From the NCBI RefSeq assembly GCF_013426735.1, contig NZ_AP023272.1:843501-907500 (forward strand): a stretch of 64,000 nt of DNA. Direction: 5' to 3'. The DNA is from Agrobacterium vitis (lineage in GTDB: Bacteria; Pseudomonadota; Alphaproteobacteria; Rhizobiales; Rhizobiaceae). Position 1 is the stretch's first letter; every line of letters begins with the position of its first letter. This document shows, in pieces, positions 13,002 through 55,636 of the stretch. The notes below the pieces were generated by a model. The model did no database searches. It had not been told where the DNA came from and saw only the letters and a list, made by a program, of their open reading frames with translations. A program made the translations under genes and the position numbers.

Positions 13002-13133
13002 CATACTGAAGTGACGCATTGACGGTTACCGGCTGGCGACATGGCGATTGACAATGGGGCCAAGCCGGATGACCTTGGCGCCCGTGGCAACGGTTGGAGG
13101 ACCGAGGCCTGTATCGCTTGGGAGGCCTGCCGT

Positions 13134-37027: not shown

Positions 37028-38280
37028 GCCAAAATTTTACTCCAGTCTACCGCATCGGCAGTGCCGATCAGGAACCACATCAGGGCGGCAGTCTTGATCG
37101 AATAGAAGGAATTGCTGATCAACATCAGCAAGAGAAGATAGATCACCATCATGCCCCGGAAGGCCCAGGCCCTGGGGTCTTTCATCGGTGAGAGCACGAA
37201 AGCCGCCCAGAGCCCGACAAAGCCGAACAGGCCGAAATTGGTCAGCGTGTAGGAAATACCGGAATCGGCGGTAAAGGCATCGGTGGTCTTTGCGCCGAGA
37301 ACCACCTGGAAATCCAGGCTGTTGAGAATGCCTGCCGTCACTTTCAACCGGCCTGACAGATCGTTGGCACCGCCTTCGGCGCCGACGATTAGCCCATAGG
37401 CGGCAATCACGGCCAACAGCAGGAATGGGGCGACCAGCCAGACAGTTTTCGGAATGAACCTGTACAGCGGCATAAGCAGGGTAATGGCGACGCAGGTGAA
37501 GAAGCCGAAGCGTGCATCGGCCAGAACAATGCTGGTCATGGCCAGCGCCATGACGATCAGCCGCCATGGCATGGCGGGTCGAAACAGCGCCCAGGCATAG
37601 AGGATGACACCAAAATTGCCGGCTGAGACCGGTTCCAGAAACACCGAGGACACCCGATGCTGGCCGAGAAAGGGCAGGAGGGTTCGCGGTTCGGGTCGCA
37701 GCCCGGAAATGAACAGACCCCGTGTCTGGCCGAAGCTTTCCTGAAGCGTCACGGTGCCGCGGGCGATGTAATAGCCGAGCACATTGAAATAATCGAGATA
37801 GCTTTCAAGCGCCAGATATTCGTAAAGCGCCACGGTGAGCACGATCAGGCCACAGGCGATCACCAGCCGGTCCGCCAGCCCGGCATGGGCAACCCTGCGG
37901 CCCATGAAATAGAACCCGACCGGGATGAAGATGTCACGCAGTGCTTTCGGGTCCAGCGCGCCGCGCAAGGCAAAGATCATCAGCATGTAGCTGACGAACA
38001 GCAGCAGGGTGAGGTAGAGGCCAGGCCGCCGGTCGACCGCCAGCAGAAAGGCAGCGCTCAGCATGGTCATTTCCCCCAGCATGACATGGGTGTCGCTGAC
38101 GGGCATGATCCGGGTGTTGACGAAGCAAAGAAACAGATTGAGCACCAGCCCGCCGATGACAGCGAAAGAGGCAATCGCCGAGATGAGCCATTCGGGAAGA
38201 AACGCCTGATGTTGCGCCTCATCCTCGGTCAGGGATCGGTCGCTGGTGCCGGTCGGCCCGGTTTGCGCCGTCACCGTCAT
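36970..38280 (-). CDS. polysaccharide polymerase-like membrane protein
   Basis: A 436-residue integral membrane protein with about ten hydrophobic helices and a large loop containing RGLFISGLRPEPRTLLPFLGQHRVSSVFLEPVSAGNFG. Topology and the Arg-rich loop suit a Wzy/O-antigen-polymerase-like protein. Its start overlaps the stop of the Wzz/GumC-like gene by four bases. It probably polymerises the repeat unit at the periplasmic face. Its last 58 bases overlap the convergent GH5 gene. Assignment as polymerase is from topology and context, so moderate confidence. Confidence 0.7.
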   Translation of the reverse strand: MTVTAQTGPTGTSDRSLTEDEAQHQAFLPEWLISAIASFAVIGGLVLNLFLCFVNTRIMPVSDTHVMLGEMTMLSAAFLLAVDRRPGLYLTLLLFVSYMLMIFALRGALDPKALRDIFIPVGFYFMGRRVAHAGLADRLVIACGLIVLTVALYEYLALESYLDYFNVLGYYIARGTVTLQESFGQTRGLFISGLRPEPRTLLPFLGQHRVSSVFLEPVSAGNFGVILYAWALFRPAMPWRLIVMALAMTSIVLADARFGFFTCVAITLLMPLYRFIPKTVWLVAPFLLLAVIAAYGLIVGAEGGANDLSGRLKVTAGILNSLDFQVVLGAKTTDAFTADSGISYTLTNFGLFGFVGLWAAFVLSPMKDPRAWAFRGMMVIYLLLLMLISNSFYSIKTAALMWFLIGTADAVDWSKILAYRDRKDGQSADAAEKSRR

Positions 38281-40490
38281 CCGGCGGTCTCGAGCACGAT
38301 ACGACCCACGACCCGTTCTGCGTCTTCGCCCAGCCGTGTCAGCAGGTCATTCAGGGCGGCGGCCTCGTCTTGCGCCGTGGTCAAAACCAGAATGACATCG
38401 GCCTCGGCGGCAAGGGCAGTAAGATGCTGCTCGCCACCAGCACCGCTGGCGTTGGTTCCTGTGCTGTTGGCATTGATCCCGGCGCCGCAGGCATTGATTA
38501 ATGTGAAATCGGTTTCCGCCTGAAGGCTTTGCTCGACAAATCGCGAATAGGTCGGGCGACCGGAGGAGGCCGATGCTCCCGCTGCTGGCCGCGCTGGCTG
38601 GTTATGGGGCAGGGCGAGACGCTCGTAGCGCAGAATGTGCGAGAGAGGTGCGTCTTCGAGATCGGGCTGCTGCAATGCCTGGGCAAGGCTTGGCCGGGCA
38701 TTGGTTTTTCTCTGCGAGCGGATCGCTAAGCGGTGGTCCAGCATGGCACCATTGGCCAGCAGCACACCGCGATCCCGATCAACCAGCTTCTGTGCTACAT
38801 CGCCAATAAAGGCGCTTGCCACCGGCCTGCCGGCTGCAACGAAGAGAACAGTCAGATCAGCATAGCCTTCACCGCATTCAATCAGAAAACCGGCTGTGCT
38901 GGCGACCGCATGGGACCAGGCGCCGCCTGCCGCCGGTTGTGATGCGGTTGCCGGGTTGGATGCGGGAACAAGAGGCGAGACCAGCCGGTGGCCAAAGGCG
39001 GTGATAAAGCTGAACGGATTGCGGGATCTACGCTTTTTCGGCTCCGTTGCATCAGCAATCAGAGCGATATGTCGTGCTGGCGCAACTGGCGGCACTGATG
39101 GCGCTTCAGCTTTGGTCGGATGAGGGGCGGCGTCGGCGGGCGCGATGCGGTCTTGGTGAGGGGCGTCGATCTCCTTGCGTGACAGGAGTTCCAGCACCAC
39201 CGCCAGCGTGCTGCCGAAGGCCAGACCAAACAGGATGGCGGCGGCAAGGATCATCACTTTGAGGGTCGTGACCGATTTTGCTGTCGCCACGGCCTCGGTG
39301 ATAACGCGGGAATTGTTGATGGAGATCGTTTGTTCCTGGCTCAGTTCCTCGGCGCGGTTGAGGAAGGCCTTGTAAATGGTGCGGATGGCTTCGGCTTCGC
39401 TTTCCAGCTGGCGCAGGGTGATCTGGCGCGCGCCGCTGTCGAAACTGGTTTTCGTCAGGCTTTGCAGCTGGGTTTCCAGCGCCTTGCGGTTGGCAACCGC
39501 CCGGTCATAGCTGAGCTTCATCGACTGGCGTACGCGGTCAAGCTCCTGCTGGATCGCCTGGCGCATGCTGGCCACCTGCGAATTGATCGCCTTCAACTGC
39601 GGATGGTTGCCGCCGAGATTGGCTGAGGCTTCGGCCTGGCGGTCCTGTAGCTGGACATAGCGGTCGCGCAGCAGCCCGACCGTGGTGGATTGCACCGCTT
39701 CTGGAATATTGCCGTTTTCAACGGCAGCGACCGTGAGATTGCGGGTCTGCTGGTAAATGGCCTGTTGCTGTTCTTCCGCGCCGCGCGCTGCGATCAATTG
39801 CTGGTTCAGCCCGGCCAATTGCTGGTCGATCACCAGTCCGGTGACGCCGGTGCTGGCCAGACCGTTGGCGGAGCGGAATTCCTCGACCGCCCTTTCGGCC
39901 TTCAGCACTCGATCACGCAATTCACTGGCCTGGGCCTGGAAGGCGGCGCTGGCCCGGCGCGCTGCATCGGAGCGGGCTTCGTCCAGCTGTTTCAGGTAGA
40001 CGGTGGCAATCATATTAGCAATGTCAGCGGCTGTTTTGGCGATGCGGTGCTCGACGGTGATCGACATGATGAAAGACTGGCCTTCGCGCTCGACTTTCAC
40101 ATGCCGGACCAGCCCGCCGATGGTGGCAGCCATGACCTCAGCGGGGGATATGGCGCTGCTTGGCTTTCCCGCATAGAGATAGGGGTCTTTCGTCAGGTCG
40201 AGCCGGTTGACCACTTCCCCTAGCACGGCGCTCGACAGGACAACGTAGATCTGGCTGTCGAGGCTGGCCGGGTCGCTTTGTACGGCGGCTGTCGGCTGTC
40301 GGCTGTCGCTACTGGTGGCAGACAGGCCGCGCGGATCGAGCAGGATCTGGGTGGACGATACATAGACAGGCTTCAGGCTGAGCGCATAGAGAAGCGCCAG
40401 ACCGGCAAACAGCGCGGCAAAAAACGCCAGGTAATACCAGCGCCGTCGCAAGATCCCGGGGATTTGAAAAATGTCGATGTCCATTTTCAT
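38277..40490 (-). CDS. Wzz/GumC-like chain-length protein with degenerate kinase domain
   Basis: A 737-residue inner-membrane protein: a first helix near residues 17-36, the Wzz domain, a long periplasmic coiled-coil region (about 170-390), a second helix near 410-435 (VMILAAAILFGLAFGSTLAV), then a cytoplasmic part shaped like a BY-type tyrosine kinase. That part lacks a recognisable Walker A motif (the usual position reads AAGRPVASAFIGDV) and no Tyr-rich tail is present. It probably sets polymer length without kinase control. The gene is divergent from the glycosyltransferases. Confidence 0.8.
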   Translation of the reverse strand: MKMDIDIFQIPGILRRRWYYLAFFAALFAGLALLYALSLKPVYVSSTQILLDPRGLSATSSDSRQPTAAVQSDPASLDSQIYVVLSSAVLGEVVNRLDLTKDPYLYAGKPSSAISPAEVMAATIGGLVRHVKVEREGQSFIMSITVEHRIAKTAADIANMIATVYLKQLDEARSDAARRASAAFQAQASELRDRVLKAERAVEEFRSANGLASTGVTGLVIDQQLAGLNQQLIAARGAEEQQQAIYQQTRNLTVAAVENGNIPEAVQSTTVGLLRDRYVQLQDRQAEASANLGGNHPQLKAINSQVASMRQAIQQELDRVRQSMKLSYDRAVANRKALETQLQSLTKTSFDSGARQITLRQLESEAEAIRTIYKAFLNRAEELSQEQTISINNSRVITEAVATAKSVTTLKVMILAAAILFGLAFGSTLAVVLELLSRKEIDAPHQDRIAPADAAPHPTKAEAPSVPPVAPARHIALIADATEPKKRRSRNPFSFITAFGHRLVSPLVPASNPATASQPAAGGAWSHAVASTAGFLIECGEGYADLTVLFVAAGRPVASAFIGDVAQKLVDRDRGVLLANGAMLDHRLAIRSQRKTNARPSLAQALQQPDLEDAPLSHILRYERLALPHNQPARPAAGASASSGRPTYSRFVEQSLQAETDFTLINACGAGINANSTGTNASGAGGEQHLTALAAEADVILVLTTAQDEAAALNDLLTRLGEDAERVVGRIVLETAG

Positions 40491-40757
40491 GTCCAGGACC
40501 GGAAAACTCCAGCCGGTTGTCCTTCTGAGGGCATTGTCATACCGTTGCTCCGAGGCGGAAAGTCCGCTGGCGAACCGCTAAAATGGCAGGCCATGGTTAA
40601 TGATACCTAACAATTTGGCCTGTTAATCACGATTCTTTACCGCGTTTGTGCAAGGATAGGACATTTATGCACAAGTTGCTTTACCAATGTTTCAAGGCAT
40701 TCTAACCAAACGATCAGGAAATTGAGGTTCTTTCCGTTTAAACCCGGGGGTATTGGC

Positions 40758-41951
40758 ATGATCATCGGCGCAAGGCGAGCGGTAAGGGAGGATAAATCCT
40801 CATCCGCACCTTTGATCGTCCAGGTGGTGCGGCAATATCCGCCGGGCCGGGGTGGATTGGAAGATGTGGTCTCCAGCCTGAGCCGGGAACTGTTGCAACG
40901 CGGGTTCCGGGTGCGGGTCGTGACGCTCGACCGGCTGTTTTCCGATCCCGGCAAAACCCTGCCAGCCCGCGAAGTGATTGATGGCGTCGAAGTGGTGCGC
41001 GTCCCCTATCGCGGCAGCAGCCGTTATCCGCTGGCGTTTTCTGCCTTTCGCCATATCCGCGATGCGGACCTTGTGCATGTGCATGGGGTGGATTTCTTTT
41101 TCGATGCGCTGGCGCTTGGCCGGTTTTTGCATGGCGCGCCGATGGTCGCCACCACGCATGGCGGTTTTTTTCACACCCGTAAATTCGCCGCGATCAAGCG
41201 GATGTGGTTCAGCAGCCTGACCCGGTTGTCGGCGAGCGCGTATCGGTCGGTGGTCTGCTGTAGCGCCTCGGATCTGGCCTTGTTTAGGGTCATTCAGCCC
41301 AGGCATTCGGTGTTGATTGAAAATGGCGTCGATACCAGCAAGTTTTCCGGACTGGCCTCGCGCCAGCCGGTGAAACGGATCGTCACGATTGGCCGTTTCT
41401 CGGTGAACAAGCGGCTTGATCATTTGTTGCAAGCCATGGCCGTGCTGGTGAAGCGCGATCCGCAGTGGCGGCTCGATATTGCCGGCTCGCCATCGGATCT
41501 GTCCGCGCAGGATGTCAGCGCGCTCATCGACGCCAATGGTCTGGCTGATCATGTCGGCCTACATCTGCAACCCGACAATCGCATTCTGGGCGAGTTGATG
41601 TCCAAGGCATCAATCTTTGCCTCGGCATCCGATTATGAAGGTTTCGGCCTGGTGGCCGTGGAGGCAATGAGTGCCGGTCTGGTACCCGTCCTTCATGGAA
41701 ACGATGCCTACCGGGCGCTCGCAGCCCAGCATTCCGGCATTGAGCTTGCCGATTTTGCCGATGCCGCGCGGGCGGCCACATCGATTGAAACGGCGTTCGC
41801 CCGGCTGGAAGCCGAGGGTGCCGATCTGCGCCACGCGCTTGCCGCTGATGTCAACCGCTATTCCTGGGAAGGGGTGGCGGAGCGTTACATTGCCCTTTAC
41901 CGGCGCGCCCTGCCTGCCATTCATCGCTGCGGGCAAGAGGCTGCGGCATGA
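40758..41951 (+). CDS. glycosyltransferase, GT4 type
   Basis: A 397-residue GT-B glycosyltransferase. N-terminal acceptor-side strand VQVVRQYPPGRGGLEDVVSSLSREL and C-terminal donor-binding domain with IVTIGRFSVNKRLDHLLQAMAVLVKR and the E-x7-E motif EGFGLVAVEAMSAGL are typical of GT4. The ATG at 40758 has GGGGG seven bases upstream; a TTG at 40722 is an alternative. Its stop overlaps the start of the next glycosyltransferase. It builds the lipid-linked repeat unit at the cytoplasmic face; sugar specificity is unknown. Confidence 0.87.
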   Translation: MIIGARRAVREDKSSSAPLIVQVVRQYPPGRGGLEDVVSSLSRELLQRGFRVRVVTLDRLFSDPGKTLPAREVIDGVEVVRVPYRGSSRYPLAFSAFRHIRDADLVHVHGVDFFFDALALGRFLHGAPMVATTHGGFFHTRKFAAIKRMWFSSLTRLSASAYRSVVCCSASDLALFRVIQPRHSVLIENGVDTSKFSGLASRQPVKRIVTIGRFSVNKRLDHLLQAMAVLVKRDPQWRLDIAGSPSDLSAQDVSALIDANGLADHVGLHLQPDNRILGELMSKASIFASASDYEGFGLVAVEAMSAGLVPVLHGNDAYRALAAQHSGIELADFADAARAATSIETAFARLEAEGADLRHALAADVNRYSWEGVAERYIALYRRALPAIHRCGQEAAA

Positions 41952-43099
41952 GCAATGCCCAGGTGATGAGTAATATTAAACCGCGCCGTCATGTTCTGAT
42001 CGTGACCGGGCAGCATTTCGCCGATGCGCCGCGCAAGGTCGATCTGCATTTCATGGCGCACAGCCTGCTGTCGCGGGGCGACAGGGTGGATTTCCTGGTC
42101 TGGCGGCTGAGCCCGATCAGCCGGCTGCTGAAGGACGGGCGTTACGCCTTTGCTCGCACGCATCGCCTCAACCAATGGGAGGGTTTGAGCGAGGGATTGC
42201 GGCAATTCATCTGGTTTCAGCTTTTCCATCCCATGAACCTGAAGTTTTCCTGGCTCAACCGCCTCGCCGATCCGCTGTTTTCCCGTGTCGGTGCGTTTTT
42301 GCCCAAACCGGTTCGCGACGCGCTGTCTTCCTACACGCATATTCTGGTGGAAAGCGGTCCTTCGCCGCTGCTGGCCCCGGTGCTTGGCCAGCATGCGCCG
42401 AAGGCCCGGATCATCTATCATGCCGCCGACCGGCTCTCGACCATCGGCGTGCCGCCTGCCGTATACCGGACGCTTGAAAAGACCATCGGGCTTTATGATA
42501 GCATCCATGTGTTGGCGCAGGCACTGCTGGCGGATTTTCCCGCCGATGCGCCGCTGCTTTACCTGCCGCATGGCATTGATAAGGCGGCTTTCGATGCCGC
42601 CAAGCAACCCCCCTATCAGAGCGGTGCCTACCAAGGCAGCAAGCATGCCGTCAGCGTTGGCGACATGCTGTTTGATGCCGATGCCATCGATGTCATGGCC
42701 GCCGCCAACCCGGATTGGACCTTTCATCTGTTTGGGGCCAAGGCATTGCCGCGCCGGGTGCTGCCCAATATCGTCGCGCATGGCGAACAGGCATTCGAGC
42801 GGATCGTGCCGTTCATTAAATTCGCCGATCTCGGCATCGCGCCTTACCGGGATGGGGCAAGCGCCGATTATCTCAGCCAATCGAGCCTGAAGATGATCCA
42901 GTATAGCTATTGCCGCCTGCCGATTGTCGCGCCGCATTTTGCCGCCATCGGGCGGGGTCATGTCATGGGCTATGACCCCGCTGATCCGGCCTCGATCCGC
43001 GCGGCGTTTTCAGCCGCAGGAGCATTTGATCGTCAGACGATTGCAACGGATGGTGTTTTAAGCTGGGACGAGACGGTCGATGTCTTGTTTGCGGGGTGA
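41948..43099 (+). CDS. glycosyltransferase (GT-B fold)
   Basis: A 383-residue protein with a GT-B pattern: N-terminal HVLIVTGQHFADAPRKVDLHFMAHSLLSRGD strand-loop, a central LLYLPHGIDKAAF block and a C-terminal FADLGIAPYRDGASADYLSQSSLKMIQYSYCRLPIVAPHF donor-binding part. It overlaps the previous gene by four bases (ATGA), so both work on the same repeat unit. It lacks the exact E-x7-E of GT4, so it is assigned only as a glycosyltransferase. Confidence 0.78.
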   Translation: MSNAQVMSNIKPRRHVLIVTGQHFADAPRKVDLHFMAHSLLSRGDRVDFLVWRLSPISRLLKDGRYAFARTHRLNQWEGLSEGLRQFIWFQLFHPMNLKFSWLNRLADPLFSRVGAFLPKPVRDALSSYTHILVESGPSPLLAPVLGQHAPKARIIYHAADRLSTIGVPPAVYRTLEKTIGLYDSIHVLAQALLADFPADAPLLYLPHGIDKAAFDAAKQPPYQSGAYQGSKHAVSVGDMLFDADAIDVMAAANPDWTFHLFGAKALPRRVLPNIVAHGEQAFERIVPFIKFADLGIAPYRDGASADYLSQSSLKMIQYSYCRLPIVAPHFAAIGRGHVMGYDPADPASIRAAFSAAGAFDRQTIATDGVLSWDETVDVLFAG

Positions 43100-43153: not shown

Positions 43154-44674
43154 ATGAGCAATGGAATAGTCGCAAATTCCGCGTTCAATGCGGCGGCAGG
43201 ATTGACCCTGCTGGCGACGGGATTCATATGCTCGATCTTCACGGCACGGGTTCTTGGGCCGGAAGCCAATGGCATCATTGCCTTTTCCGTCTGGCTAGCC
43301 TCAACAGCGGCGCTGGTGGCCGAACTTGGCACCGGTGTGCTTTTATTGCGTCTTCTGCCGCAGTTGAAGGGGCAGGGCTATGGCGAAAGCGACCGTAAAG
43401 GTTTCGCCGCCTATCTGCTCTGGCCGGTGGTTGGCTCGACATTGCTGCTGCTGGCCCTCTATTTCCTGTTTTTCTGGGTGGCGGAGGCCAGGCATTGGGC
43501 AGAAACCGCGCCTGAAGTGCTGGTGGTGACGGCGCTGTTGTTTGCCACGCAGGCTATCGGGATGTTTGCCAAGAATTACCTGATCGGCGAACAGCGGGTG
43601 GATATTTTCTTCCGTATGACCTTGACGGCTGGGCTGCTGCAACTGGTCGGTGTCATCACGGGTACCTTGCTGTTCGGCGTGCCAGGTGCGCTGTTTGGCT
43701 ATGTTCTGGCCTATATTTCCCAGTTTCTCTTCGCCGCCGCCCTACTACGCCACAAGGTGAAAAGCTGCGGCATCGGACTGAGTTACCTGCTTGGCTCCTC
43801 CTTCGTGCTCTCGCTGGAATTCATGGTGGATTCGATCTTCCTGAACCGGATCGAGCTGTTCTTCCTGCAACGCTATCAGGGCATTGAGACCGTCGGCTAT
43901 TATTCCGTGGCCTTCTCGCTGACCAATATCGCCTTGCAGGTACCGATTCAGCTGTCCGGCAGTCTCGTGCCTTATTATGCCGAACATCTGCACCGCGCGC
44001 CCGGCGGACGGTTGCCTGTGGCGATGTTTGAAAGCGTGGTGCGAAGCCTGGCCTATTTCACGCTGCCGATGAGCCTGGGCCTGGCGGCGGTGTCGCACCG
44101 GTTGGTCACGCTGGTGTTTGGCGATGCCTTTGCCCCGAGCGCGCCGATGCTGACGCTGCTGGCGCTGTCTGTGCCGGTTGCCGTTGCCTGTCAGGTGGCG
44201 ACACAATATCTGTTTGCCCTCGATAAAATCCGCCAAAGACTGTTTGTCGGGCTGGGCGGTGCGTTTATCATGCTGGTCGGGGATGTTTTGCTTGTGCCTT
44301 CCTATGGGGGAGAAGGTGCGGCTTTCGTGCGGATCGTGGTGTTCACAGCCATGAGCCTGGCGATGCTGCGCTGGATGCGGTTCGAAGGGTCATTGGCGCC
44401 GCTGGGGTTCAGTCTTTTCAAGGTTACCGTAGCCGCTGGCTGTTGTGCGGCAGCGGCTTTGGCGGTGCAGGATGTGGTGCCGGGTATCGGCGGCCTTGTC
44501 CTTGCGATCATCGGTGCCGTCAGCGTCTATTGTCTTGCGCTTCGGCTGTTGCGGGCCGTGCCGCAGGCGGATGTGTCGGTCATGGCAGGGCTGATTGCCC
44601 GTTTGCCAAAACGGCTGGCGGGGCCTTTGAATGTGTTTTTAACGTTGCTGACCGCGACACCCAGAAGGAGCTGA
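43154..44674 (+). CDS. Wzx-type polysaccharide flippase
   Basis: A 506-residue membrane protein of the MOP superfamily with about 12-14 helices. N-terminal NSAFNAAAGLTLLATGFICSIFTARVLGPEANGIIAFSVWLAS is typical of Wzx/PST flippases. It moves the lipid-linked repeat unit to the periplasmic face, where the polymerase acts. It follows the glycosyltransferase genes on the same strand after 54 bases. A gap of about 160 bases then precedes the hydrolase gene. Confidence 0.88.
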   Translation: MSNGIVANSAFNAAAGLTLLATGFICSIFTARVLGPEANGIIAFSVWLASTAALVAELGTGVLLLRLLPQLKGQGYGESDRKGFAAYLLWPVVGSTLLLLALYFLFFWVAEARHWAETAPEVLVVTALLFATQAIGMFAKNYLIGEQRVDIFFRMTLTAGLLQLVGVITGTLLFGVPGALFGYVLAYISQFLFAAALLRHKVKSCGIGLSYLLGSSFVLSLEFMVDSIFLNRIELFFLQRYQGIETVGYYSVAFSLTNIALQVPIQLSGSLVPYYAEHLHRAPGGRLPVAMFESVVRSLAYFTLPMSLGLAAVSHRLVTLVFGDAFAPSAPMLTLLALSVPVAVACQVATQYLFALDKIRQRLFVGLGGAFIMLVGDVLLVPSYGGEGAAFVRIVVFTAMSLAMLRWMRFEGSLAPLGFSLFKVTVAAGCCAAAALAVQDVVPGIGGLVLAIIGAVSVYCLALRLLRAVPQADVSVMAGLIARLPKRLAGPLNVFLTLLTATPRRS

Positions 44675-44832
44675 GGGGCTCTGCAGCGTTCCTTATGCTT
44701 CCGGTTGGAACATGGTCTGTTGGTGTTCTTTATATATGCTCAATAGTTTTCACCTTAAATCCATGGAGATTTAAGGAATTATGCAGTAGCCGTTTTTGAG
44801 AGAGTGCCGTGGGGCAAGGAAAGGGCAGGTTG

Positions 44833-46743
44833 ATGGAAGCGATAACCGAGCGGGTTGGCCCGGCATCTGGCCAGCGGCTTCAGCCGCACCAGCATGCTGT
44901 GGCCCAGCCGGTCAGCTTTGCTGGCACCTTCGGGCTCTATCAGCCGGCGGAGGGTGCCAAACAGGGTGTGGTGCGCAAATGCGCGGTGCTGTTTCTTCAG
45001 CCCTGGGGCTTTGAGGAAATGTGTACGCACAAGCTGTTTCGCATCATTGCTGAAGAACTGGCATGTGAGGGCATCGCAAGTCTGCGTTTCGACTATCCCG
45101 GCACGGGCGATGCGCTGGATCCGCCGGACCGTAGTCTTGGCCTGTCGCTCTGGCAGGATACGATACGCTTGGCCCTTGACGTGCTTGCTCAAAAGACCGG
45201 CGGCCTGCCGGTGGTTTTGCTGGGACACGGGCTGGGCGCGTCGCTTGGCGTGGGCATGGCCGCTGAACTCGAGGGACTGGCGGGATTTGTCGCCATGGCG
45301 CCCGTGGCCTCCGGCCGCGCCTATCTGAGGGAATTGCAGTTCTGGGCGCGGGTCATCGATGACGGATTGGGTCTGGCCGAACATTTGCGCCTCAGCGGGA
45401 TGACGGCCATTGCCGGACATGTGATGCCGGAGGCAAAGGCCTCGGCCTTGAAGAAAACTGATTTTTCCGCCGTGCAGCCGCATCGCTCCATTCCGCATCT
45501 GTTCGTCAACCGGGCGGATCGGCCCGGTGACGGGCAAATGGCAAAGCAGATTGAAGCGAAAGGCGCCCGCGTCGAGACCATCGATTATCCCGGCTATGAT
45601 GCCATGGTCGGCAATCCTGCCATAGCCCGAATGCCCATGGTAGCGGCTGAACATGTCATCAGCTGGATCGTTCGCCGGGCAGCAGCGCTTGGCGAGCAGA
45701 AGCGTCCGTTGGCTATCGATCCTTCAGCAGTATCCGTACAGGACGAAGATCAGGCGCACCTGGATGGCGGGGATTTTCGCGAGACAGCCCTTCGGTTTGG
45801 CCGGGGCAAACGGCTTTACGGTATTTTGTGCGAGCCGACCGGTCCCCGCAGTGGCGCAAGCGTTCTGTTGCTCAACACTGCCTATGACCGCAGTGCGGGA
45901 TGGGGACGCTCGGGTGTCGCCATGGCGCGCAAGCTTGCAGGCGAGGGTATCGCCTCCCTGCGCTTTGATGGAGCCAATGTTGGCGACAGCCCGCCGGTGC
46001 CGGGCCTGCCGGATCAGGTGCTTTACGCCGAAACCCAATATGACGATGTGGAAGCCGCGCTTGCCGTTCTCGAAGAGCGTTCACTGCTGCCCAGCGTGGT
46101 GGCCGGACGGTGCAGTGGTGGTTATCTCGGGTTTTCCTGCATGACCAAGGATCACCGCATTGCCGGAGCCTGCCTGGTCAATCCCTTCGTCTTCTATTGG
46201 GATAAGAGACGGCGGGTGGAAGACGGGCTAGCCGTGGTGCCGCGTTCGCTCGATACCTACAAGCATCGGCTGTTTCAGATGCAAACCTTGCGACGTCTCT
46301 GGCGGGGCAAGGTGGATGTGAAGAACGCGACCCGCAATTTCGCTCTGGTTGGCGTGCGTCGTGTGTTGAACCGCCTTGGCCTCGCCCAGGTCTTCAGCCG
46401 GGATGTCCGGCTGGAACATCGGGCCGTGCGCGTCGCCTTTGCCGCTCTGGCAAAGCGAAAAACACCGCTGGTGCTGCTCTATAGCGAGCAGGACGTTGGT
46501 CTTGACCATTTCTATCAGCATTTCGGCCCGCAGGGCCGCAAGCTGGAGCGCTATCCCAATGTCCGCACCGACATTCTGGCGGAGACGGATCATAATTTTT
46601 CTCCCGCCGCTGCCCAGCAGCGCTATTTCGAGGAAATCAAGGCGCTGGCACTGGCGGTCCAGGCGTCGAAATTGCCTGCCCAGCAGATTAAAGCCGCTGT
46701 ATCCGCAGGCAAAGAACCCGTCTCAGAACCGGAAGCGTCGTAA
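44833..46743 (+). CDS. tandem alpha/beta hydrolase with replaced nucleophiles
   Basis: A 636-residue protein with two alpha/beta-hydrolase domains (about 25-285 and 315-620). In the first, the nucleophile elbow reads GHGLG (131-135), with Gly in place of Ser. In the second it reads GRCSG (425-429), with Cys427 in the Ser position. Each domain begins with a matching RF-D block (SLRFDYPGTGDA, SLRFDGANVGDS). The layout resembles hydrolases encoded in exosortase-type polysaccharide clusters. It may deacylate or transfer acyl groups on the polymer. The ATG at 44833 has GGGCAGG upstream. Its end overlaps the convergent GH2 gene by 21 bases. Confidence 0.75.
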   Translation: MEAITERVGPASGQRLQPHQHAVAQPVSFAGTFGLYQPAEGAKQGVVRKCAVLFLQPWGFEEMCTHKLFRIIAEELACEGIASLRFDYPGTGDALDPPDRSLGLSLWQDTIRLALDVLAQKTGGLPVVLLGHGLGASLGVGMAAELEGLAGFVAMAPVASGRAYLRELQFWARVIDDGLGLAEHLRLSGMTAIAGHVMPEAKASALKKTDFSAVQPHRSIPHLFVNRADRPGDGQMAKQIEAKGARVETIDYPGYDAMVGNPAIARMPMVAAEHVISWIVRRAAALGEQKRPLAIDPSAVSVQDEDQAHLDGGDFRETALRFGRGKRLYGILCEPTGPRSGASVLLLNTAYDRSAGWGRSGVAMARKLAGEGIASLRFDGANVGDSPPVPGLPDQVLYAETQYDDVEAALAVLEERSLLPSVVAGRCSGGYLGFSCMTKDHRIAGACLVNPFVFYWDKRRRVEDGLAVVPRSLDTYKHRLFQMQTLRRLWRGKVDVKNATRNFALVGVRRVLNRLGLAQVFSRDVRLEHRAVRVAFAALAKRKTPLVLLYSEQDVGLDHFYQHFGPQGRKLERYPNVRTDILAETDHNFSPAAAQQRYFEEIKALALAVQASKLPAQQIKAAVSAGKEPVSEPEAS

Positions 46744-49188
46744 GGCAGAGCCAGTCAGGATTTCGCCGCTGGGTTTCTCCGGTATTAGAAGCCTAATCCG
46801 GCGGGCAAAACCGGGCACCAGATGAAAGAAATCGTCGGTGCTGCGGCCGTCTTCCAGGGCGATATGGACCGATTGGGCCAGCCGGTCTGTTTCCAGCATC
46901 AGCCACCAGCCATCTTTTTCCTGCGAGAGTGTGGTGCGGATCTCTGCATCATGCATGGCCTGGGCGCGTCCCTGCGGGAAGTGAAAGGACTGGCTGACGA
47001 TTTCGCCGCTTGCAGGCTCGCTCAGGGTCGCCACCGTGACGTCATGGGCGGGCGGCCCGAAGCGGAAGGCATAGGTCGTGTCGAAAAACGCTCCGAACAC
47101 ATCGGTGGCATGCAGTGTTATGCTGCTGCGCGGCGTCAAGGTGACGGCGCGCCTTGCTGCCACGACCGGCTGTTTACCGTCGCGCAGGCAGGTGAGATCC
47201 AAAGTCAGCGTCTGTTCCCGCACCGTGTCATTGCAAAGATGCACATCAAGCCCATTGGTGCCTTCGTCGGTCATGGTGATGCGGACGGGGTTGAAGGCGC
47301 GCCGCACTGCGTACCAGACGGGTTTCGGCGTACCGGTCGCATCCACCAGTCCCCAGCCGGGACCGATGGTCAGGTCCTGAAAAGTCCAGATCAGCGCGCC
47401 ATTGCAGGATGAGCCGGGACGTCGCCATTCCGCATAGGTTTCCTCCAGCACCTCTCCGCTCACCGCTCGCGACAGATGCAGGTAACGCGCCGGATTTTCC
47501 CGGCGTAACCGGGCCGGATCGACATCGTAGAGCAGGGCGAGGTAGTGATCGCGAATATCCTCGAAATCCCAGGAGGCACCCCGGTCTCGCGGTACACGCG
47601 CCTTCCAGCGGGGATCATGAACCGCTGACACGGACAAATGCCTGTCCAGCGTCTGTTGCTGGGGGACCTGGGCAAAGGCCAGGCATTCGGCGGCAAAGCG
47701 GACATGGGCGCGGCGGGCATCCTCAAGCGGGCGGCAATAGGCACCAACGCCGTAATAATGGGTGATGCCGGTATCCGGGCTGAAGGGCATTGCGCCACCC
47801 ATCGGCGAGTTTTCCACATAGGGCAGATGCGGTGCAAAGCGCGCGCAGAGCTGCGGCAGAAGGCTGGTGAAGACAGGGCCTTTCCAGCTGGTTTCCGGCA
47901 GGCCCAGCATGGCGCCCTGCTGATAGACTTCGCTGCCGCCGCACAGGATTGCCAGTGAGGGAGACGCCTGTACGGTGCTTAACAGCTGCCCCACTTCCCG
48001 GCGGATATGGTCGGAAAATGCCTCGTCGGCAGCGGGATAGTCGAAATTGGCCAGCATGATATCCTGCCAGACCATCAGCCCCAGCCGGTCGCAGAGCCTG
48101 AAGAAATCAGCACTTTCATAGGTCATGGTGCCGCCAATGCGGATCATGTTCATGCCGGAATCCACGGCCATGCTCAGCCAGGGCGCATAATCCTCGGCGG
48201 TGCCGGGCAGGCGGGTCAGGTCGGCATTGGTCCAGACGGCACCGCGGCAGAAGATTTTCACGCCATTGACGAAGATCGCGAAATCCTTGCCATCCGCGCC
48301 CCGGTCGATCCGGATGCGGCGAAAGCCGGTGAGGCCAAGCGAATGCGGTTTTCCATCCAGCGTCAGGCGAATATCATGCAGCACCGGTTCGCCATGGGTG
48401 CGCGGCCACCAGGGAACGACGGTGGGAAGACGAAGCTGGCCCGCGACATGGCCGTCGGCATCGGCTTTGAGGGCGAGCGTCTCGCCTGCGCATGTCACGG
48501 ATATGGTTGATACCGCGCCTATCAATTGGAACGCAAAGTCAAGCAGGCCGGTGCCGTCTTCATCCAGATCGGAGTGCAGCGCGAGATCGGTGATGGTGCT
48601 TGCGCCCGGGCGGATCAGGCTGATTGGCCGATACGGCCCGACCGCATGAATATCAGGGCACCAGCCGGGCATATGGCCAAGGGCGGTTGTGCGCACCAGC
48701 CGCAGGCCCTGGTCGCTCATCATCTGCGGTCGCCAGCGGGCTCTTGGACCGCGCTTTTCCAGATGGGGTCTCAGGGCGCGAAAGCAGATCGACACGTCGT
48801 CCGAGCCGGTCAGGATCACATCGACATCATGGGCCTCGAACATGCTCTGCGATGGCAGGATCAGCCTGTCGTTCAAATAGACCTCGGAAATGGTCGCCAA
48901 GCCTTCGAAGCGCAGCACGGCCGGGCCGGGCTGTTCGCCGGTCAGGGGGCGGAGATACCAGATGTCCTTGCCATGCAGCGGGCTTGGATGATCCGGGTCG
49001 AACAGGCCCGCCTTGGTCAACGCCTCGGCGACGGTGCCGGGAACCGGGGCCTGAAGGCGGGCGCTGGGGCGGTGCAATGCTTTCGGGCTGTCATAGGTGC
49101 CTGGCTCGCAGACCAGCAAGGTCCAACCGGCTTCCAGCGGGCGGATGTCGGCATCGAGATAGGTGATCATCGGCACTGCGTCCCTCAT
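46723..49188 (-). CDS. GH2 family glycoside hydrolase, beta-mannosidase-like
   Basis: An 821-residue GH2 protein: N-terminal jelly-roll (about 20-190; FEGLATISEVYLNDRLILPSQSMFE), immunoglobulin-like domain (190-280), TIM barrel with RIDRGADGKDFAIFVNGVKIFCRGAVW and LAILCGGSEVYQQGAML (acid/base Glu), and ALIWTFQDLTIGPGWGLVD near 600, a beta-mannosidase hallmark. No signal peptide is seen, so it is probably cytoplasmic. The start may be the ATG at 49170. Its role beside the polysaccharide genes is probably turnover of a mannose-containing oligosaccharide; this is inference. Confidence 0.8.
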   Translation of the reverse strand: MRDAVPMITYLDADIRPLEAGWTLLVCEPGTYDSPKALHRPSARLQAPVPGTVAEALTKAGLFDPDHPSPLHGKDIWYLRPLTGEQPGPAVLRFEGLATISEVYLNDRLILPSQSMFEAHDVDVILTGSDDVSICFRALRPHLEKRGPRARWRPQMMSDQGLRLVRTTALGHMPGWCPDIHAVGPYRPISLIRPGASTITDLALHSDLDEDGTGLLDFAFQLIGAVSTISVTCAGETLALKADADGHVAGQLRLPTVVPWWPRTHGEPVLHDIRLTLDGKPHSLGLTGFRRIRIDRGADGKDFAIFVNGVKIFCRGAVWTNADLTRLPGTAEDYAPWLSMAVDSGMNMIRIGGTMTYESADFFRLCDRLGLMVWQDIMLANFDYPAADEAFSDHIRREVGQLLSTVQASPSLAILCGGSEVYQQGAMLGLPETSWKGPVFTSLLPQLCARFAPHLPYVENSPMGGAMPFSPDTGITHYYGVGAYCRPLEDARRAHVRFAAECLAFAQVPQQQTLDRHLSVSAVHDPRWKARVPRDRGASWDFEDIRDHYLALLYDVDPARLRRENPARYLHLSRAVSGEVLEETYAEWRRPGSSCNGALIWTFQDLTIGPGWGLVDATGTPKPVWYAVRRAFNPVRITMTDEGTNGLDVHLCNDTVREQTLTLDLTCLRDGKQPVVAARRAVTLTPRSSITLHATDVFGAFFDTTYAFRFGPPAHDVTVATLSEPASGEIVSQSFHFPQGRAQAMHDAEIRTTLSQEKDGWWLMLETDRLAQSVHIALEDGRSTDDFFHLVPGFARRIRLLIPEKPSGEILTGSALRRFRF

Positions 49189-49224: not shown

Positions 49225-50187
49225 TTATACCCTCTTGTCGGCAAGCCCCGTCATCAGCCTGTCCCATGCGTCAATGGCGGGGTCAAGTGCTGCTTTCAGC
49301 GGATCGAATTTCTTGCGGGTGACGGCACGAGCCAGTTGGAACTGAACCGTTTTTGCCAGTTCCGAAATCCGCAATGCTTCGGCAATTTCGTTCGTATAGC
49401 GATCGTCTGCGGCGAGCCATTTCAGATGGCTGGCCAAAAGCTCGAAATTCGCCCCGAATTGCCGCAGCGTGTTGAAGGCATAGGTATGAAAATAGCCGAA
49501 GGGCCGCTCTGCGATGGCTTCCACCTGGGCCGGAAACACTTCTGCAAATCCGGCAAAGGGATTGCCTTTCGGGCGGCGGGCAAAGTGAAAGGCGAAAAGC
49601 CGCTTGGCAACGGCGCGCAGATGCGTTTCATCCCTCCGGGTTTCGGGGAATTTGGCAAATTCGGTGTAGGGCAGGAACGGCGCGGTCTCCGGTGTTGCTA
49701 ATTGCCAAATTCCGTCAAAATCCTCAGCTTCCAGCCGGAAAAATCCGCCATTGTGGAAATAATCCATCGATCTGTTCGCGAGATCCAACCGGTTGATGCC
49801 GACGGTGGTCTTGCCATGGTGCTGGCGATAGCCGACGCCTGCCGTATCGGGCATGAAATAGCTGTCCATTTCGACAAGGCACAACCGGCCACGGCTGATC
49901 TGCTGGGCCACATGCGTCTCGGCCCGGTCGAAAATTGCCAGTTCCGTGACACGAATGCCGTAAAGCGCTTCGAGATCTTCCAGCGGCACCTTGAAGAAGG
50001 TGAACTGGTCGCCCTCGAAATCCTGGGTCAGGGTAAAGCCCAGCATGGCTTCCGGCGGCAGGCCCAGCACGGACAGGACCTCGATCCACAGATCGACATA
50101 GCAATTGGTTTCCGGCCACATACGCTCAGCCGAATGCAGCAGATGAGGTGTATAGCGGGCCGGATCGAGCGGCAGAACCGTGGTCAT
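49225..50187 (-). CDS. DUF1839 family protein of the carrier-protein operon
   Basis: A 320-residue protein of unknown function (DUF1839), starting MTTVLPLDPARYTPHLLHSA. It contains WPETNCYVDLWIEVLSVLG near residue 24, a Cys-containing block, and CLVEMDSYFMPDTAGVGYRQHHGKTTVGIN near 105-135, where Cys, His and Asp could form a cysteine-peptidase-like or transferase active site; that is my reading of the motif. The start lies two bases after the ligase stop, so it is the last gene of the operon. It may use the aminoacylated carrier protein as substrate. Confidence 0.7.
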   Translation of the reverse strand: MTTVLPLDPARYTPHLLHSAERMWPETNCYVDLWIEVLSVLGLPPEAMLGFTLTQDFEGDQFTFFKVPLEDLEALYGIRVTELAIFDRAETHVAQQISRGRLCLVEMDSYFMPDTAGVGYRQHHGKTTVGINRLDLANRSMDYFHNGGFFRLEAEDFDGIWQLATPETAPFLPYTEFAKFPETRRDETHLRAVAKRLFAFHFARRPKGNPFAGFAEVFPAQVEAIAERPFGYFHTYAFNTLRQFGANFELLASHLKWLAADDRYTNEIAEALRISELAKTVQFQLARAVTRKKFDPLKAALDPAIDAWDRLMTGLADKRV

Positions 50188-50189
50188 CG

Positions 50190-51098
50190 TCAGCCCCAGA
50201 GTGCGGTGCGCACCGATTGCGGCCAGGCCTTGACGTCCAGCCCGTGATGATGGAACAGCGCCAGCGCGATCCGCTCCAAACCAAAGCCGACGCAGGCGGT
50301 ATGGGCAACCGAACCGTCTTCCAGATTCAGGCCCCATTTGCTGCCGAAAGCATCCTGATGATAGTTGAAGCTCATGCAGGCGGTGGGCTTGGCGACTGAG
50401 GTGATCGGGATCAGCAATTCGAATTTCAGGTTCTGGTCGCGCTGGTTATTGGCGAGCATCTTGCCAGCCCGCCCGAAGAAGGGATCGTTGGCAATGTCGA
50501 TTTCGACCGGCAATGCCACCTCTTCCATCATCTTCAGGCCGCGATCCATCCAGGTCTGGCGGAAATCGGTGACATGGCTCTCTGAGCCCATGCAGACATA
50601 TTCGCGCATGCGAAACAGCTGCTGGCGGGCCGGATCGGTGGAGGGTTCGTGGCGAAAACAATAGGATTGCAAGTCAAACAACGCGCCGGAGGCGGCAATC
50701 GGGCCACGCTTGGCAATGGTCGGATAAAGCGGATAGCAGGCGGCGGGCGTCAACACGATATCCGTTGCTTTCTGGTCCTTCGTCCAGTCCTCGTCGGCAT
50801 CCATGCATTTCAGCAGGCTGACATGGTCGAGTTCATTGCCGCAGAAGCTGTGGACGGTGCCGGCCAGTTGCGGAAAGCTTTTCATATAGCCGCTGGTCTC
50901 GAAATAGGCCCGGTTCATGCCTGGCGGAAAGCGCAGAGCTTCGGCGCCATCCGCGCCACCGAACCGGTCGATCAACCGCTCGAAAGCGGCGATCACATCT
51001 TCAAACTGGCCGCTACGGCCATAAAGCCCGTCCACGCCAGTATCGATCAGCAGGCCGGCCTCGAACAGCCGGTCGAGAAAATTGATTTGACTATCCAT
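50190..51098 (-). CDS. SerRS-like amino acid:[carrier protein] ligase
   Basis: A 302-residue class II aminoacyl-tRNA synthetase paralogue made only of the catalytic domain. Residues Cys121, Glu166 and Cys269 fit the zinc site of the atypical (archaeal-type) SerRS, and motif 2 (YCFRHEPS.. [10 protein letters not shown]) and motif 3 ([12 protein letters not shown]) are clear. Bacterial homologues of this size do not charge tRNA: they activate Gly or Ala and load it on a carrier protein, as shown for Bradyrhizobium and Agrobacterium homologues. The start at 51098 avoids an upstream tail. A carrier-protein gene is in the same operon. Confidence 0.85.
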
Positions 51099-51102
51099 TT
51101 GC

Positions 51103-52302
51103 TTACCCCAGCAGACGTGTGTCGAGTTTATGAACCAGCAACATATTGGAGGTGTTGCCAAGAATACGGTCATTGGAAATCATCAGCCGGGCCGAATGCG
51201 CGTCGCGCAGGTGGCGGCCAAGGCTGTAGGGCGTGCCATTCTTGTAGCCCATGATGCCGCAGATCAGCATGGCCTGGTTGATGATGTCGATGATCGTCTC
51301 GGACGAGGCAATCTTGACATTGTTCATCGTCACCGAAAAACCGAAGGACGACAGCTTGTCGCCATCGTATTTTGCCTCTTCATAGGCTTTCAGCGCGGCA
51401 ACGACATTGGAGCGGACCAGTTGCAACTGATTGGCGGCTTGCGCCAGATGCAAGGCACCTGGCGGCATCTGACCCTGGCTCTTGCGAGCGGCGGCACGTA
51501 CGAAACTCTGCGCTCTCGCCACAGCATCGACAGCAATGCCGTACCAGACGCCGCTCCACAGAATATGGGAGGCGGCCAGCATCGATTGGGCGGCAATGTC
51601 GGCGAAGGGCTTCGGCAGGATCTGGACGGCCGGCGCTTCGCCCTTGAACAGGAAGCCATCGGACCGGGTGCCGCGCATGCCGAGCGTGTCCCAGTCCACT
51701 GTCTTTTCCAGGCTATATTGGCCCTTGAGAAATACTGTCATCACCTGGTCGGACGGCGCGGCATCCTTATGAGCGCGCGAGGTGATCAGGATCGCATCGG
51801 CCTCTGCTCCATAGGAAATCACCGTGGCGTCTTTTTCCAGTCGGCAGGTGTCGCCGTCGATCTCGATGGCGCAGATGGAATTGCGCAGATTGCCGCCAAT
51901 GCCGCCTTCAGTCGTGGCGGAGCCGAGCAGCAATTGCTCACCAGCGACCCGTGCCATGAAGCTGCGCTGCCAGGCATTGTCCTGGGCATGTTCCACGAGG
52001 CTGGAACATTTGATGTGATGCATGGCGAAAATCATCGCGCTGGAGGCGCAGGCCTGGCCAAGCGTGGTGCAGATCTCCGCAATTGCGGCAAATCCGGCAT
52101 TTTCACCGCCAAGTTCTGCGGGGATCTGAATACCGAGCAGGCGCTCCGCCTTCAATGCATCTACGGTCTCGCGCGGAAACCGGCCCTGGAGATCGACATC
52201 CTCGGCATATTGTGCCGCAATGGCGGCAACGCGCGCCGCGCGGGCAGCGAGATCACCTTGGGGAGGCGATATTTCAAGGGCGTGAGTGGCCGGAACGGTC
52301 AT
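51103..52302 (-). CDS. acyl-CoA dehydrogenase-like flavoprotein
   Basis: A 399-residue protein with the acyl-CoA dehydrogenase fold: N-terminal helical domain ([33 protein letters not shown]), beta-barrel middle with [15 protein letters not shown] (flavin contact) and C-terminal helical domain ending [23 protein letters not shown]. Its start overlaps the carrier-protein stop by one base, and the ligase starts four bases after its stop. In this setting it may oxidise or modify the aminoacyl group while held on the carrier protein rather than a fatty acyl-CoA; that is inference. Confidence 0.82.
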
Positions 52303-52553
52303 CAGGCGACCTTCCGATCCTCCAGGATCTGGCGCACCGTGCGTTCGATGGCCTCGATGCTGGCAAAGGATTTGCGATTGAGCAAGTGGTCGGGAAATTC
52401 GATGTCGAAGGCTTCCTCGATACCAAGCATCAGTTGCACGGAAGCAAAGGAAGACAGTCCCAGTGCATAAAGATCGGCATCTGCCGCGATCTCTGTAACG
52501 GCACCCTGTAAGCCACCGACTTTGCCCAGAATAGTCCGAATGGTCTCGTTCAT
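52302..52553 (-). CDS. acyl/aminoacyl carrier protein
   Basis: An 83-residue carrier protein. The phosphopantetheine attachment Ser35 lies in ALGLSSFASVQLML, where LGLSS replaces the common LGxDS; the second Ser is the candidate. Helices II-III match the carrier family (IEEAFDIEFPDHLLN). The ATG at 52553 (MNETIRTILG) is chosen for GAGG six bases upstream; an in-frame ATG four codons earlier is also possible. It is first in the operon, and is probably charged by the ligase encoded two genes downstream. Confidence 0.88.
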   Translation of the reverse strand: MNETIRTILGKVGGLQGAVTEIAADADLYALGLSSFASVQLMLGIEEAFDIEFPDHLLNRKSFASIEAIERTVRQILEDRKVA

Positions 52554-52784: not shown

Positions 52785-53834
52785 CTACCGATCACGATAA
52801 ATGTGGTGATGTCCATGGAAGTCCGTGACCCGATAATGATCGCCTTCCTTGCTGATCTGGCTCGCATCGATCGGCGCCTTGCCGTGGCCGCCGGGAATAT
52901 CCAGCACGTAAGTCGGCTGACAGAGACCGGACAGATGCCCGTGCAAGGCTGAGACGATGGCTTGGCCTTCTTCTATGCTGAGGCGAAAATGGCCGGTGCC
53001 GGGCGCCAGATCCGGGTGATGCAGGTAATAAGGCCGGATACGCATGTCGACAAAAGTGCGCATCAGGTCTGCCAGCACGCCAGCATCGTCATTGACACCT
53101 TTCAGCAGCACCGTTTGACTTAAAAGCGCAAAACCGGCTTGCAGAAGTTTCGCACTCGCCGCCCTGGCTTGCGGCGTCATCTCGCGCGGATGGTTGGCGT
53201 GAATGGCGATATAGGTGGTCTTGCCGCTTGCCTGCAAGGCATCGATCAGATCCTTGTCGATACGCGCCGGATCGGCGACAGGAACACGGCTGTGAAACCG
53301 GATGATCCGGACATGATCGATGGTGCCCAATTGCTGCAAGATCGACCGCAGCCGGCGTGGCGACAGAACCAGCGGGTCGCCGCCGGTAAAGATCACTTCC
53401 CAAATATCCTTTTGGTCACGGATATAGGCTATGGCCGCGTCCAGCGCCGGGCCTGAGAGCAGGCCATCACCGTCCGGTCCGACCATTTCGCGGCGAAAGC
53501 AGAAACGGCAATAGACCGGGCAGCTATGCACCACCTTCAACAGAACCCGGTCTGGATAGCGATGGACAATGCCCTCCACCGGGCTATGGGCATGGTCACC
53601 GATCGGATCGGCCCGCTCCACGGGTTGATGCACCAATTCGCCAGCCTGAGGTACGAATTGCGCGGCAATCGGGTCTGTGGGGTCGTTTGGGTCGATCAGC
53701 GCCAACATGGCGGGGGTAATGGCGATGGCGTAACGGGCAGCGACCGCGTCCAATTCCGGGCCGGTTTCGGCAGCAACAAGTCCGGTCTCGACCAGTTCTC
53801 TGACAGTTTTCACTGTTTTGACGGACGCGGTCAC
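52785..53834 (-). CDS. epmB: EpmB-type lysine 2,3-aminomutase
   Basis: A 349-residue radical SAM enzyme of the KamA family. The cluster motif CRFCFRREMVG (CxxxCxxC) is near residue 101, followed by EVIFTGGDPL, and a late IDVRPYYLHHPDLAPGTGHFR (MRIRPYYLHH). It converts alpha-lysine to beta-lysine for attachment to EF-P. The proposed GTG at 53834 overlaps the epmA stop by three bases (GTGA). It is coupled with epmA, and efp is divergent, so the three form one EF-P modification unit. Confidence 0.88.
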   Translation of the reverse strand: MTASVKTVKTVRELVETGLVAAETGPELDAVAARYAIAITPAMLALIDPNDPTDPIAAQFVPQAGELVHQPVERADPIGDHAHSPVEGIVHRYPDRVLLKVVHSCPVYCRFCFRREMVGPDGDGLLSGPALDAAIAYIRDQKDIWEVIFTGGDPLVLSPRRLRSILQQLGTIDHVRIIRFHSRVPVADPARIDKDLIDALQASGKTTYIAIHANHPREMTPQARAASAKLLQAGFALLSQTVLLKGVNDDAGVLADLMRTFVDMRIRPYYLHHPDLAPGTGHFRLSIEEGQAIVSALHGHLSGLCQPTYVLDIPGGHGKAPIDASQISKEGDHYRVTDFHGHHHIYRDR

Positions 53835-54904: not shown

Positions 54905-55066
54905 TGCACTCTTAATCTTTCGTCATTGGCCGGCAATTCGGCTGCAACACGGGCTGGCTATTTCGGCAAATTTGGGTTAGGTGCGCCCCATGCAACGTCA
55001 CAGCATGTCAAAGGGGCGCTGGGTCGTCCTTTACGATGTGTGTTTGAGAGATACAAGGAATTCCGA

Positions 55067-55636
55067 ATGGTCAAGGTCATCGCCTCTTCGGTCCGCAAGG
55101 GCAATGTTCTCGAAGTCGACGGCAAGCTCTATGTCGTGCTTACCGCGCAAAACTTCCATCCCGGCAAAGGCACGCCGGTGACCCAGATCGACATGCGCCG
55201 CATCGTTGACGGTGTGAAAGTGTCGGAACGCTGGCGCACAACCGAGCAGGTGGAGCGTGCTTTCGTTGAAGACGTCAACCATCAGTTCCTCTACGAGGAT
55301 GGTGAAGGCTTCCACTTCATGAACCCGGAAAACTACGACCAAATCGTGGTAGATGTCGAGACCATGGGTGACCAGAAGGCCTATCTCCAGGAAGGCATGA
55401 CCTGCGTTATCTCCATGTATGAAGGTGTTGCGCTGGCGCTTGACCTGCCGCGCCATGTGACGCTGGAAATCATGGAGACCGAACCGGTCGTCAAAGGCCA
55501 GACGGCATCCTCGTCTTATAAGCCTGCGATGCTTTCCAACGGCATCCGCACCCTGGTGCCGCCGCATATCAATGCCGGAACCCGCGTTGTGATCGCCACC
55601 GAAGACAATTCCTATGTCGAGCGTGCCAAGGACTGA
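55067..55636 (+). CDS. efp: translation elongation factor P
   Basis: A 189-residue EF-P that binds the ribosome between the P and E sites and rescues stalls on consecutive prolines. Lys34 in FHPGKGTP is the site modified with beta-lysine by EpmA/EpmB, whose genes are divergent. Three domains are recognisable: the KOW-like domain I (1-64) and OB folds II and III (ending [11 protein letters not shown]). The ATG at 55067 has AAGGA upstream; an in-frame upstream reading is not coding. A strong terminator follows. Confidence 0.97.

Follow-up and report, generated by a model that had tools for sequence, protein, structure and literature searches.

A conserved unit of five genes

The window analysed here is a stretch of 64,000 nucleotides of Agrobacterium vitis (contig NZ_AP023272.1, positions 843,501 to 907,500), and our subject is a row of five genes on its minus strand. 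Read along that strand, they encode an acyl carrier protein, or ACP (52302..52553, 83 amino acids), recognized by its PP-binding and NF005480 matches; a flavoprotein with the acyl-CoA dehydrogenase fold (51103..52302, 399 amino acids), without the canonical catalytic glutamate and with Ile375 instead; an amino acid:[carrier protein] ligase resembling seryl-tRNA synthetase (50190..51098, 302 amino acids), with the zinc-site residues Cys121, Glu166 and Cys269; a protein of family DUF1839 (49225..50187, 320 amino acids), predicted to be a carrier-protein-dependent amide-forming enzyme, with Cys29, His124, Thr127/Thr128 and His145 at its centre; and a protein of glycoside hydrolase family 2, or GH2, resembling beta-mannosidases (46723..49188, 821 amino acids), with Glu420 and Glu501. 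A preliminary description of this DNA had the first four genes overlapping or abutting with gaps of -1, 4 and 2 bases, and the coordinates agree. It left out the GH2 gene, which starts 36 bases downstream of DUF1839 on the same strand, and which we count as the fifth member. The genome has one match to DUF1839; among named relatives, the best ones are from A. vitis both for this protein, at 95-98%, and for the ligase, at 99%.

The unit is kept in three sets of genomes. A scan of named genomes with a 27-row alignment of DUF1839 gave 565 confirmed stretches: the best 80 of these are close kin, with at least 69% identity, and the order ACP, flavoprotein, ligase, DUF1839, GH2 on one strand is found at 80 of 80 loci. 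In 26 more distant genomes (25 from a sample of the order, and one of another order), where the identity of DUF1839 falls to 45-70%, the four genes are in order 26 times out of 26, and GH2 follows in 25, the exception being locus L165 (genome G186). Finally, DUF1839 is present in 16 of the 398 genomes of a phylum sample, six of them already in the earlier sets; the ten new ones, four of which belong to another class, have all five genes in order (10/10). In this last count, locus L191 is entered through its operon copy of DUF1839, the best match there being a second copy, and L195, which carries the other DUF1839 copy of genome G653, is excluded. The four families that had been proposed to work together are thus indeed conserved together in this phylogenetic profile, at every locus of the three sets.

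DUF1839 is found in 2 of 240 genomes of a class sample and in 26 of 199 genomes of the order sample. In the latter, a ligase at or above its cut-off is present in all 26 genomes with DUF1839, versus 10 of the 173 others (Fisher p = 1e-24, a value overstated since the genomes are related), and the linkage of ligase and DUF1839 is far above chance. Counted alone, ligases at cut-off occur in 36 of 199 genomes of the order and 5 of 240 of the class; matches under the cut-off (4 genomes of the order sample, 5 of the class sample) were left out of the reading of contexts. At the 12 ligase loci without DUF1839, a relative of the flavoprotein is present in 11 and a relative of the ACP in 10, on the other strand in 9 of those 10, while GH2 is present in none: DUF1839 and GH2 therefore travel together, and the ligase, the flavoprotein and the ACP are also found without them. 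A ligase tree of 39 rows separates the DUF1839-linked ligases from 11 of the 12 unlinked ones by fully supported branches; the twelfth, from L163, sits on a very long branch and groups with the linked ones.

No single replacement of DUF1839 was seen at the ligase-only loci in the clusters of neighbouring open reading frames (ORFs), which are not annotated; this clustering contains many antisense ORFs, owing to the high G+C content, and was little used beyond the core genes. By eye, some of the neighbours at L159, L160, L161 and L164 form families that resemble homoserine acyltransferase (four loci) and O-acetylhomoserine lyase (three loci). The genome of the window has, on a different contig, a further sequence distantly resembling the ligase (L190, G000:C3, about 5046-5839), which lies in two pieces in different frames and looks broken.

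Directly upstream of the unit, the window has EpmB-like, EpmA-like and elongation factor P genes (52785-55636). EpmA is near the unit at 66 of the 80 close loci and at 2/26 and 2/10 of the more distant ones, and because of this rarity its proximity looks like the result of shared ancestry and not of function.

Predicted loading and oxidation of the carrier-bound group

The ACP scores 35.6 bits with the Pfam PP-binding model and 118.3 bits with NCBIfam NF005480, whose cut-off is 72; it also has a weak match to DltC (26.7 bits, under the cut-off of 68). In an alignment of the window protein with 19 of the 36 extracted sequences, Ser35 is invariant (20/20 rows), and it is the expected phosphopantetheine site.

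The ligase matches NF005479, "amino acid--[acyl-carrier-protein] ligase", with 520 bits for a cut-off of 357. Its zinc-site residues, reported earlier, stand opposite the same residues of the solved ligase 4h2w. The loss of the tRNA-binding arm also holds: the protein has only 302 amino acids, and serine-tRNA ligase models cover only its residues 110-298. The known amino acid:[carrier protein] ligases, a family to which we take Atu2573 and Bll6282 to belong, prefer glycine or alanine.

The flavoprotein has the fold of acyl-CoA dehydrogenases, and both fold and sequence scores tie between dehydrogenases and monooxygenases of the DszC, KijD3 and DnmZ kind. The place of the canonical catalytic glutamate was located by counting from an invariant Arg-Asp pair, and Ile375 was placed there according to what we take to be the canonical motif. 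In an alignment of 27 of the 37 extracted sequences plus the window, this position holds Ile in 27 rows and Val in one: none of the 28 has the glutamate. The invariant His95 does not separate dehydrogenases from monooxygenases either, since by eye both butyryl-CoA dehydrogenase (9w60) and DnmZ share it. Among the matches are enzymes of the same fold that act on carrier-bound amino acids, ColB1 (7xp7) and prolyl-ACP dehydrogenase (4irn), and there is a weak match to the RedW model. If the substrate is glycine, alpha-beta dehydrogenation is impossible, so that one would naturally think of oxidation of the C-N bond or of N-oxygenation; with alanine, a dehydro product could be imagined.

The DUF1839 protein as a predicted amide synthase

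The DUF1839 protein matches PF08893 with 467.7 bits (cut-off 22.5), over positions 2-312 of a profile of 313. According to a 2023 survey of papain-like enzymes, the family belongs to the papain-like fold and its Cys-(Thr/Ser)-His site has the histidine and the Thr/Ser swapped; the guess offered there is that it processes glycans at the cell wall (PMC10318531). Searching the solved structures by sequence gave no useful match to DUF1839, and PF14399 (BtrH_N) gave none at E 0.001. Structure prediction of the protein alone, an approach already suggested in the preliminary description, gave a confident alignment-based model, and the only solved structures that match it well over background, with Foldseek and VIA-align 2, are CcbD, CtaG and AziU2-U3. 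This match spans nearly the whole chain, including the C-terminal helical part, at an identity of 12-13% with CcbD and LmbD.

Among 119 sequences, His124 and His145 are invariant, Cys29 is kept in 117, Thr or Ser stands at position 127 in 118, and Thr128 is kept in 117. A second group of conserved residues lies on helix 265-291, with Lys279 (115/119), Gln282 (118/119), Arg287 (119/119) and Arg291 (116/119); by analogy, this may be the same carrier-docking side as in CcbD. The protein had been proposed earlier to transfer or release the carrier-bound group through a centre rich in Cys, His and Asp. Of the two functions, transfer is favoured by the predicted fold; the generic centre gives way to a more plausible reading of the conserved residues, a papain-like cysteine site, probably formed by Cys29 with His145 and Thr127/128, or with His124. 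With the canonical Cys-His-Asp/Glu order of a triad, either invariant histidine is possible.

In genomes G722 and G653, both of another class, the DUF1839 copy of the operon has Gln or Arg in place of Cys29, and Cys in place of Thr128. Each genome has a second copy with the whole site: that of G722 lies at a distance of 4 kb on the opposite strand, that of G653 on a different contig. These pairs, in which the operon copy lacks the active cysteine and the other keeps it, are found at L191:7401-8378 and 12277-13218, and at L194:9465-10394 and L195:127-1047. As the second copies keep the site, every genome among the 119 sequences has at least one copy of DUF1839 with Cys29. A dead copy that has a live partner would fit an enzyme whose site is common to several subunits, as in CcbD.

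The GH2 protein and the polysaccharide surroundings

The closest solved relatives of the GH2 protein are beta-mannosidases. Its residues Glu420 and Glu501 are invariant in 17 of 17 rows (16 of the 25 extracted sequences plus the window) and are aligned to the glutamates of beta-mannosidases 5n6u and 7op6, a pair that we take to be catalytic. By eye, the N-terminus has no obvious signal peptide, and the protein would thus act inside the cell. A mannose-1-phosphate guanylyltransferase gene near the unit, at the single locus L191, fits a mannose-containing glycan.

In the window, the unit converges with a plus-strand gene (44809..46743) for two alpha/beta hydrolases in one protein, matching hydr2_PEP then hydr1_PEP, both under cut-off. 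Beyond it, a Pfam scan identifies a Wzx-like polysaccharide flippase (43154..44674, plus strand), a GumK-like glycosyltransferase (41948..43099, plus strand), a family-4 glycosyltransferase (40722..41951, plus strand) and a polysaccharide chain-length protein of the Wzc/Wzz type (38277..40490, minus strand). Relatives of the double hydrolase are near the unit at 35/80, 19/26 and 5/10 loci of the three sets, and in other families sugar-phosphate transferase, Wzy, Wza and Wzc genes are found near it. The preliminary description held that no acceptor enzyme was present. This is probably wrong: the DUF1839 protein looks like a condensing enzyme, and GH2 and the polysaccharide neighbours point to a sugar acceptor.

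Other features of this region can be recorded here. The hydrolase fusion resembles exosortase-A-associated hydrolases 2 and 1, and L184 and L152 have the same fusion next to the unit. The translation of 35825-37027 (plus strand) is, by eye, like that of a GH5 cellulase, the minus-strand ORF 35813-36952 being probably antisense; at L170, Pfam identifies a GH5 gene near the unit. At 31488-34412 (minus strand), a phosphotransferase domain of the APH family is fused to a class-III aminotransferase.

A free amine on the sugar might come from the action of a nearby deacetylase, and two families of these enzymes were considered. PIG-L occurs in 12 of the 27 genomes with DUF1839, and none of the listed places is near the unit. 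PF01522 is found within 20 kb of the unit in 16 of the 27 genomes, as counted by eye among the matches listed, versus 1.5 expected, but the same matches include none for any of the 3 genomes that belong to the family of the window. It was rejected as the amine-maker: the proteins are of different kinds, the one at L179 being allantoinase-like by eye, and the one at L168 matching PdaB, HfsH and NodB, all under cut-off.

A proposed pathway and its rivals

It seems fairly probable that the five genes form a small aminoacyl-transfer line, which puts an amino acid on the amine of a surface sugar by means of DUF1839. The ligase would charge the ACP with the amino acid, which is probably glycine or alanine; the flavoprotein would likely oxidise it while it is bound to the carrier, before transfer; Cys29 of DUF1839, as the candidate nucleophile, would likely take the aminoacyl group and then pass it to the amine of a cell-surface sugar precursor. 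This would be a two-step ping-pong route like that of CcbD, from the carrier thioester to the cysteine of the enzyme, then as an amide to the amino sugar, which the GH2 protein may prepare or trim. Such a route, which needs neither a peptide synthetase nor tRNA, would leave a surface glycan with an aminoacyl group, perhaps in oxidised form, attached by an amide bond. The two ends of this line do not have the same strength: the amide-forming role of DUF1839, predicted from the structure model, stands well above the surface-sugar acceptor, for which we would give little more than even odds.

Several observations weigh against such a pathway. A common fold, alone, shows no function. In profile-profile comparisons with nine BtrH_N proteins, DUF1839 obtains local E-values of 0.014-0.02, barely over noise (two unrelated profiles give 0.04-0.63), and this weak alignment places His124, and not Thr127/128, opposite the BtrH_N histidine. 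Relatives of the five polysaccharide genes of the window are near the unit at only 38/80, 9/26 and 3/10 loci, counts that are lower bounds; for comparison, they are present at 2/12 ligase-only loci. Locus L165, without GH2, has polysaccharide genes among 0 of 6 scanned neighbours, and the three scanned neighbours at L152 are the double hydrolase, an ADP-ribosylglycohydrolase and a transporter. The supply of the amine is also in question: among the 27 window ORFs scanned with Pfam, there is no deacetylase, and the sole aminotransferase is the class III domain of the fusion at 31488-34412; in the whole genome, PIG-L has 0 matches and PF01522 five, none of them in the window.

Some of these observations are what one would expect if the acceptor were a small molecule, with the same loading and transfer yielding a free aminoacyl-amino-sugar or aminoacyl-amine, as in lincosamide, mycothiol or butirosin pathways. 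CtaG and AziU2-U3 work in small-molecule pathways. So does CcbD (PMC12945683); L152 and L165 have no polysaccharide genes among their few scanned neighbours, and a soluble glycoside is a possible substrate for GH2. We nevertheless regard this alternative as rather unlikely: the unit has genes for polysaccharide assembly on its flanks, both in the window and at loci of several other families, and no recurring exporter was noticed beside it, in neighbour clusters that are not all annotated. A surface sugar remains the acceptor that we prefer.

Two further explanations do away with the amide. DUF1839 could be a hydrolase, or off-loading enzyme, that frees an oxidised amino acid, such as an imino or N-hydroxy acid, the unit then making a small metabolite. 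Papain-like enzymes are, in the survey's account, largely peptidases and amidases (PMC10318531), and flavoproteins such as ColB1 and prolyl-ACP dehydrogenase do oxidise carrier-bound amino acids; given that the predicted fold favours transfer, we consider this improbable. Least probable is that the carrier holds a short acyl chain and that the flavoprotein is an ordinary acyl-ACP dehydrogenase: the ligase is far over the cut-off of its family (520 versus 357 bits), and not one of the 28 rows has the usual glutamate, whose place is taken by Ile or Val.

The aminoacyl-transfer line can be stated in a bolder form, which we advance only tentatively and think somewhat less likely to be right than wrong. 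A retired aminoacyl-tRNA synthetase would charge the carrier, a flavoenzyme would oxidise the load, and cysteine amide synthases of a new class (DUF1839, with its exchanged His/Thr site and, in some lineages, a dead operon copy with an active twin) would fix the amino acid on an amino sugar prepared by GH2.

Knowledge of the ligases goes back to 2010, and there are solved structures, yet in a review of 2022 their biological role is still described as unknown (PMC9437257). The unit would offer a likely purpose for these amino-acid loaders: with a CcbD-like enzyme, it names the next enzyme, the type of bond and the kind of acceptor, and makes an old question directly testable. If true, the proposal joins the evolution of aminoacyl-tRNA synthetases, amide synthases outside peptide synthetases, and the decoration of bacterial surfaces with amino acids. 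Its core idea is already in print since 2010 (PMC2922099), and is thus not new. The match between DUF1839 and CcbD was not found in print among open-licence papers, and CcbD, LmbD, CtaG and AziU3 are not named in the main text of the one paper in which DUF1839 turned up; Atu2570-Atu2575 turned up in two. As far as our searches of the literature go, the CcbD-type match, the counts for the five-gene unit, the absence of the DUF1839 and GH2 pair from ligase-only loci, the missing glutamate and the dead-plus-live pairs of DUF1839 are new.

Comparison with known systems

CtaG and AziU2-U3, whose entries we take to belong to the closthioamide and azinomycin pathways, have the same fold as DUF1839 and other substrates; the two-protein complex of AziU recalls the paired DUF1839 copies of G722 and G653. 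In the Alm and Dlt systems, AlmE and DltA are ligases of the A-domain type, and the transferases have other folds. The addition of glycine to lipid A by AlmE/AlmF/AlmG, and Dlt D-alanylation, resemble the proposed unit in that a carrier protein helps bring an amino acid to a surface polymer, but AlmE/AlmF/AlmG make an aminoacyl ester on lipid A (PMC4790380), where we propose an amide.

Among the closest known enzymes are CcbD and its twin LmbD, which form an amide bond between a carrier-bound proline or alkylproline and an amino sugar; CcbD is described as following a ping-pong mechanism, a neighbouring subunit helping to bind the sugar and arginines 312-324 gripping the carrier (PMC12945683). 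DUF1839 shares their fold over nearly the whole chain and, by prediction, their active cysteine and carrier-bound substrate. The differences are in the site, a Cys-His-Glu triad in CcbD (PMC12945683) and another or unsettled arrangement in DUF1839, and in the loading, done by the A-domain protein LmbC/CcbC in these pathways (PMC4351081) and by a SerRS-like ligase here. BtrH, of the butirosin pathway (PF14399), is also presented as a papain-like enzyme that transfers from a carrier protein to an aminoglycoside (PMC10318531), although DUF1839 has no PF14399 match.

On the side of the ligases, Bll0957 is one of the amino acid:[carrier protein] ligases, described in Mocibob 2010 and 2013 as cited in PMC2922099 and PMC9437257. 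Ligases of its type have in common with ours the family, the zinc-site residues, the lost tRNA-binding part and the partner ACP, and some of their relatives are without DUF1839 and GH2, unlike the unit of the window. The nearest precedent is the note added in proof of the 2010 paper, which predicted that a sugar of the cell surface receives an amino acid on its amino group, with Atu2574 as the amide-former, and also mentioned a linked glycosidase and a redox enzyme with the aminoacyl group as its substrate (PMC2922099). In that note, the prediction comes without fold, mechanism class or counts.

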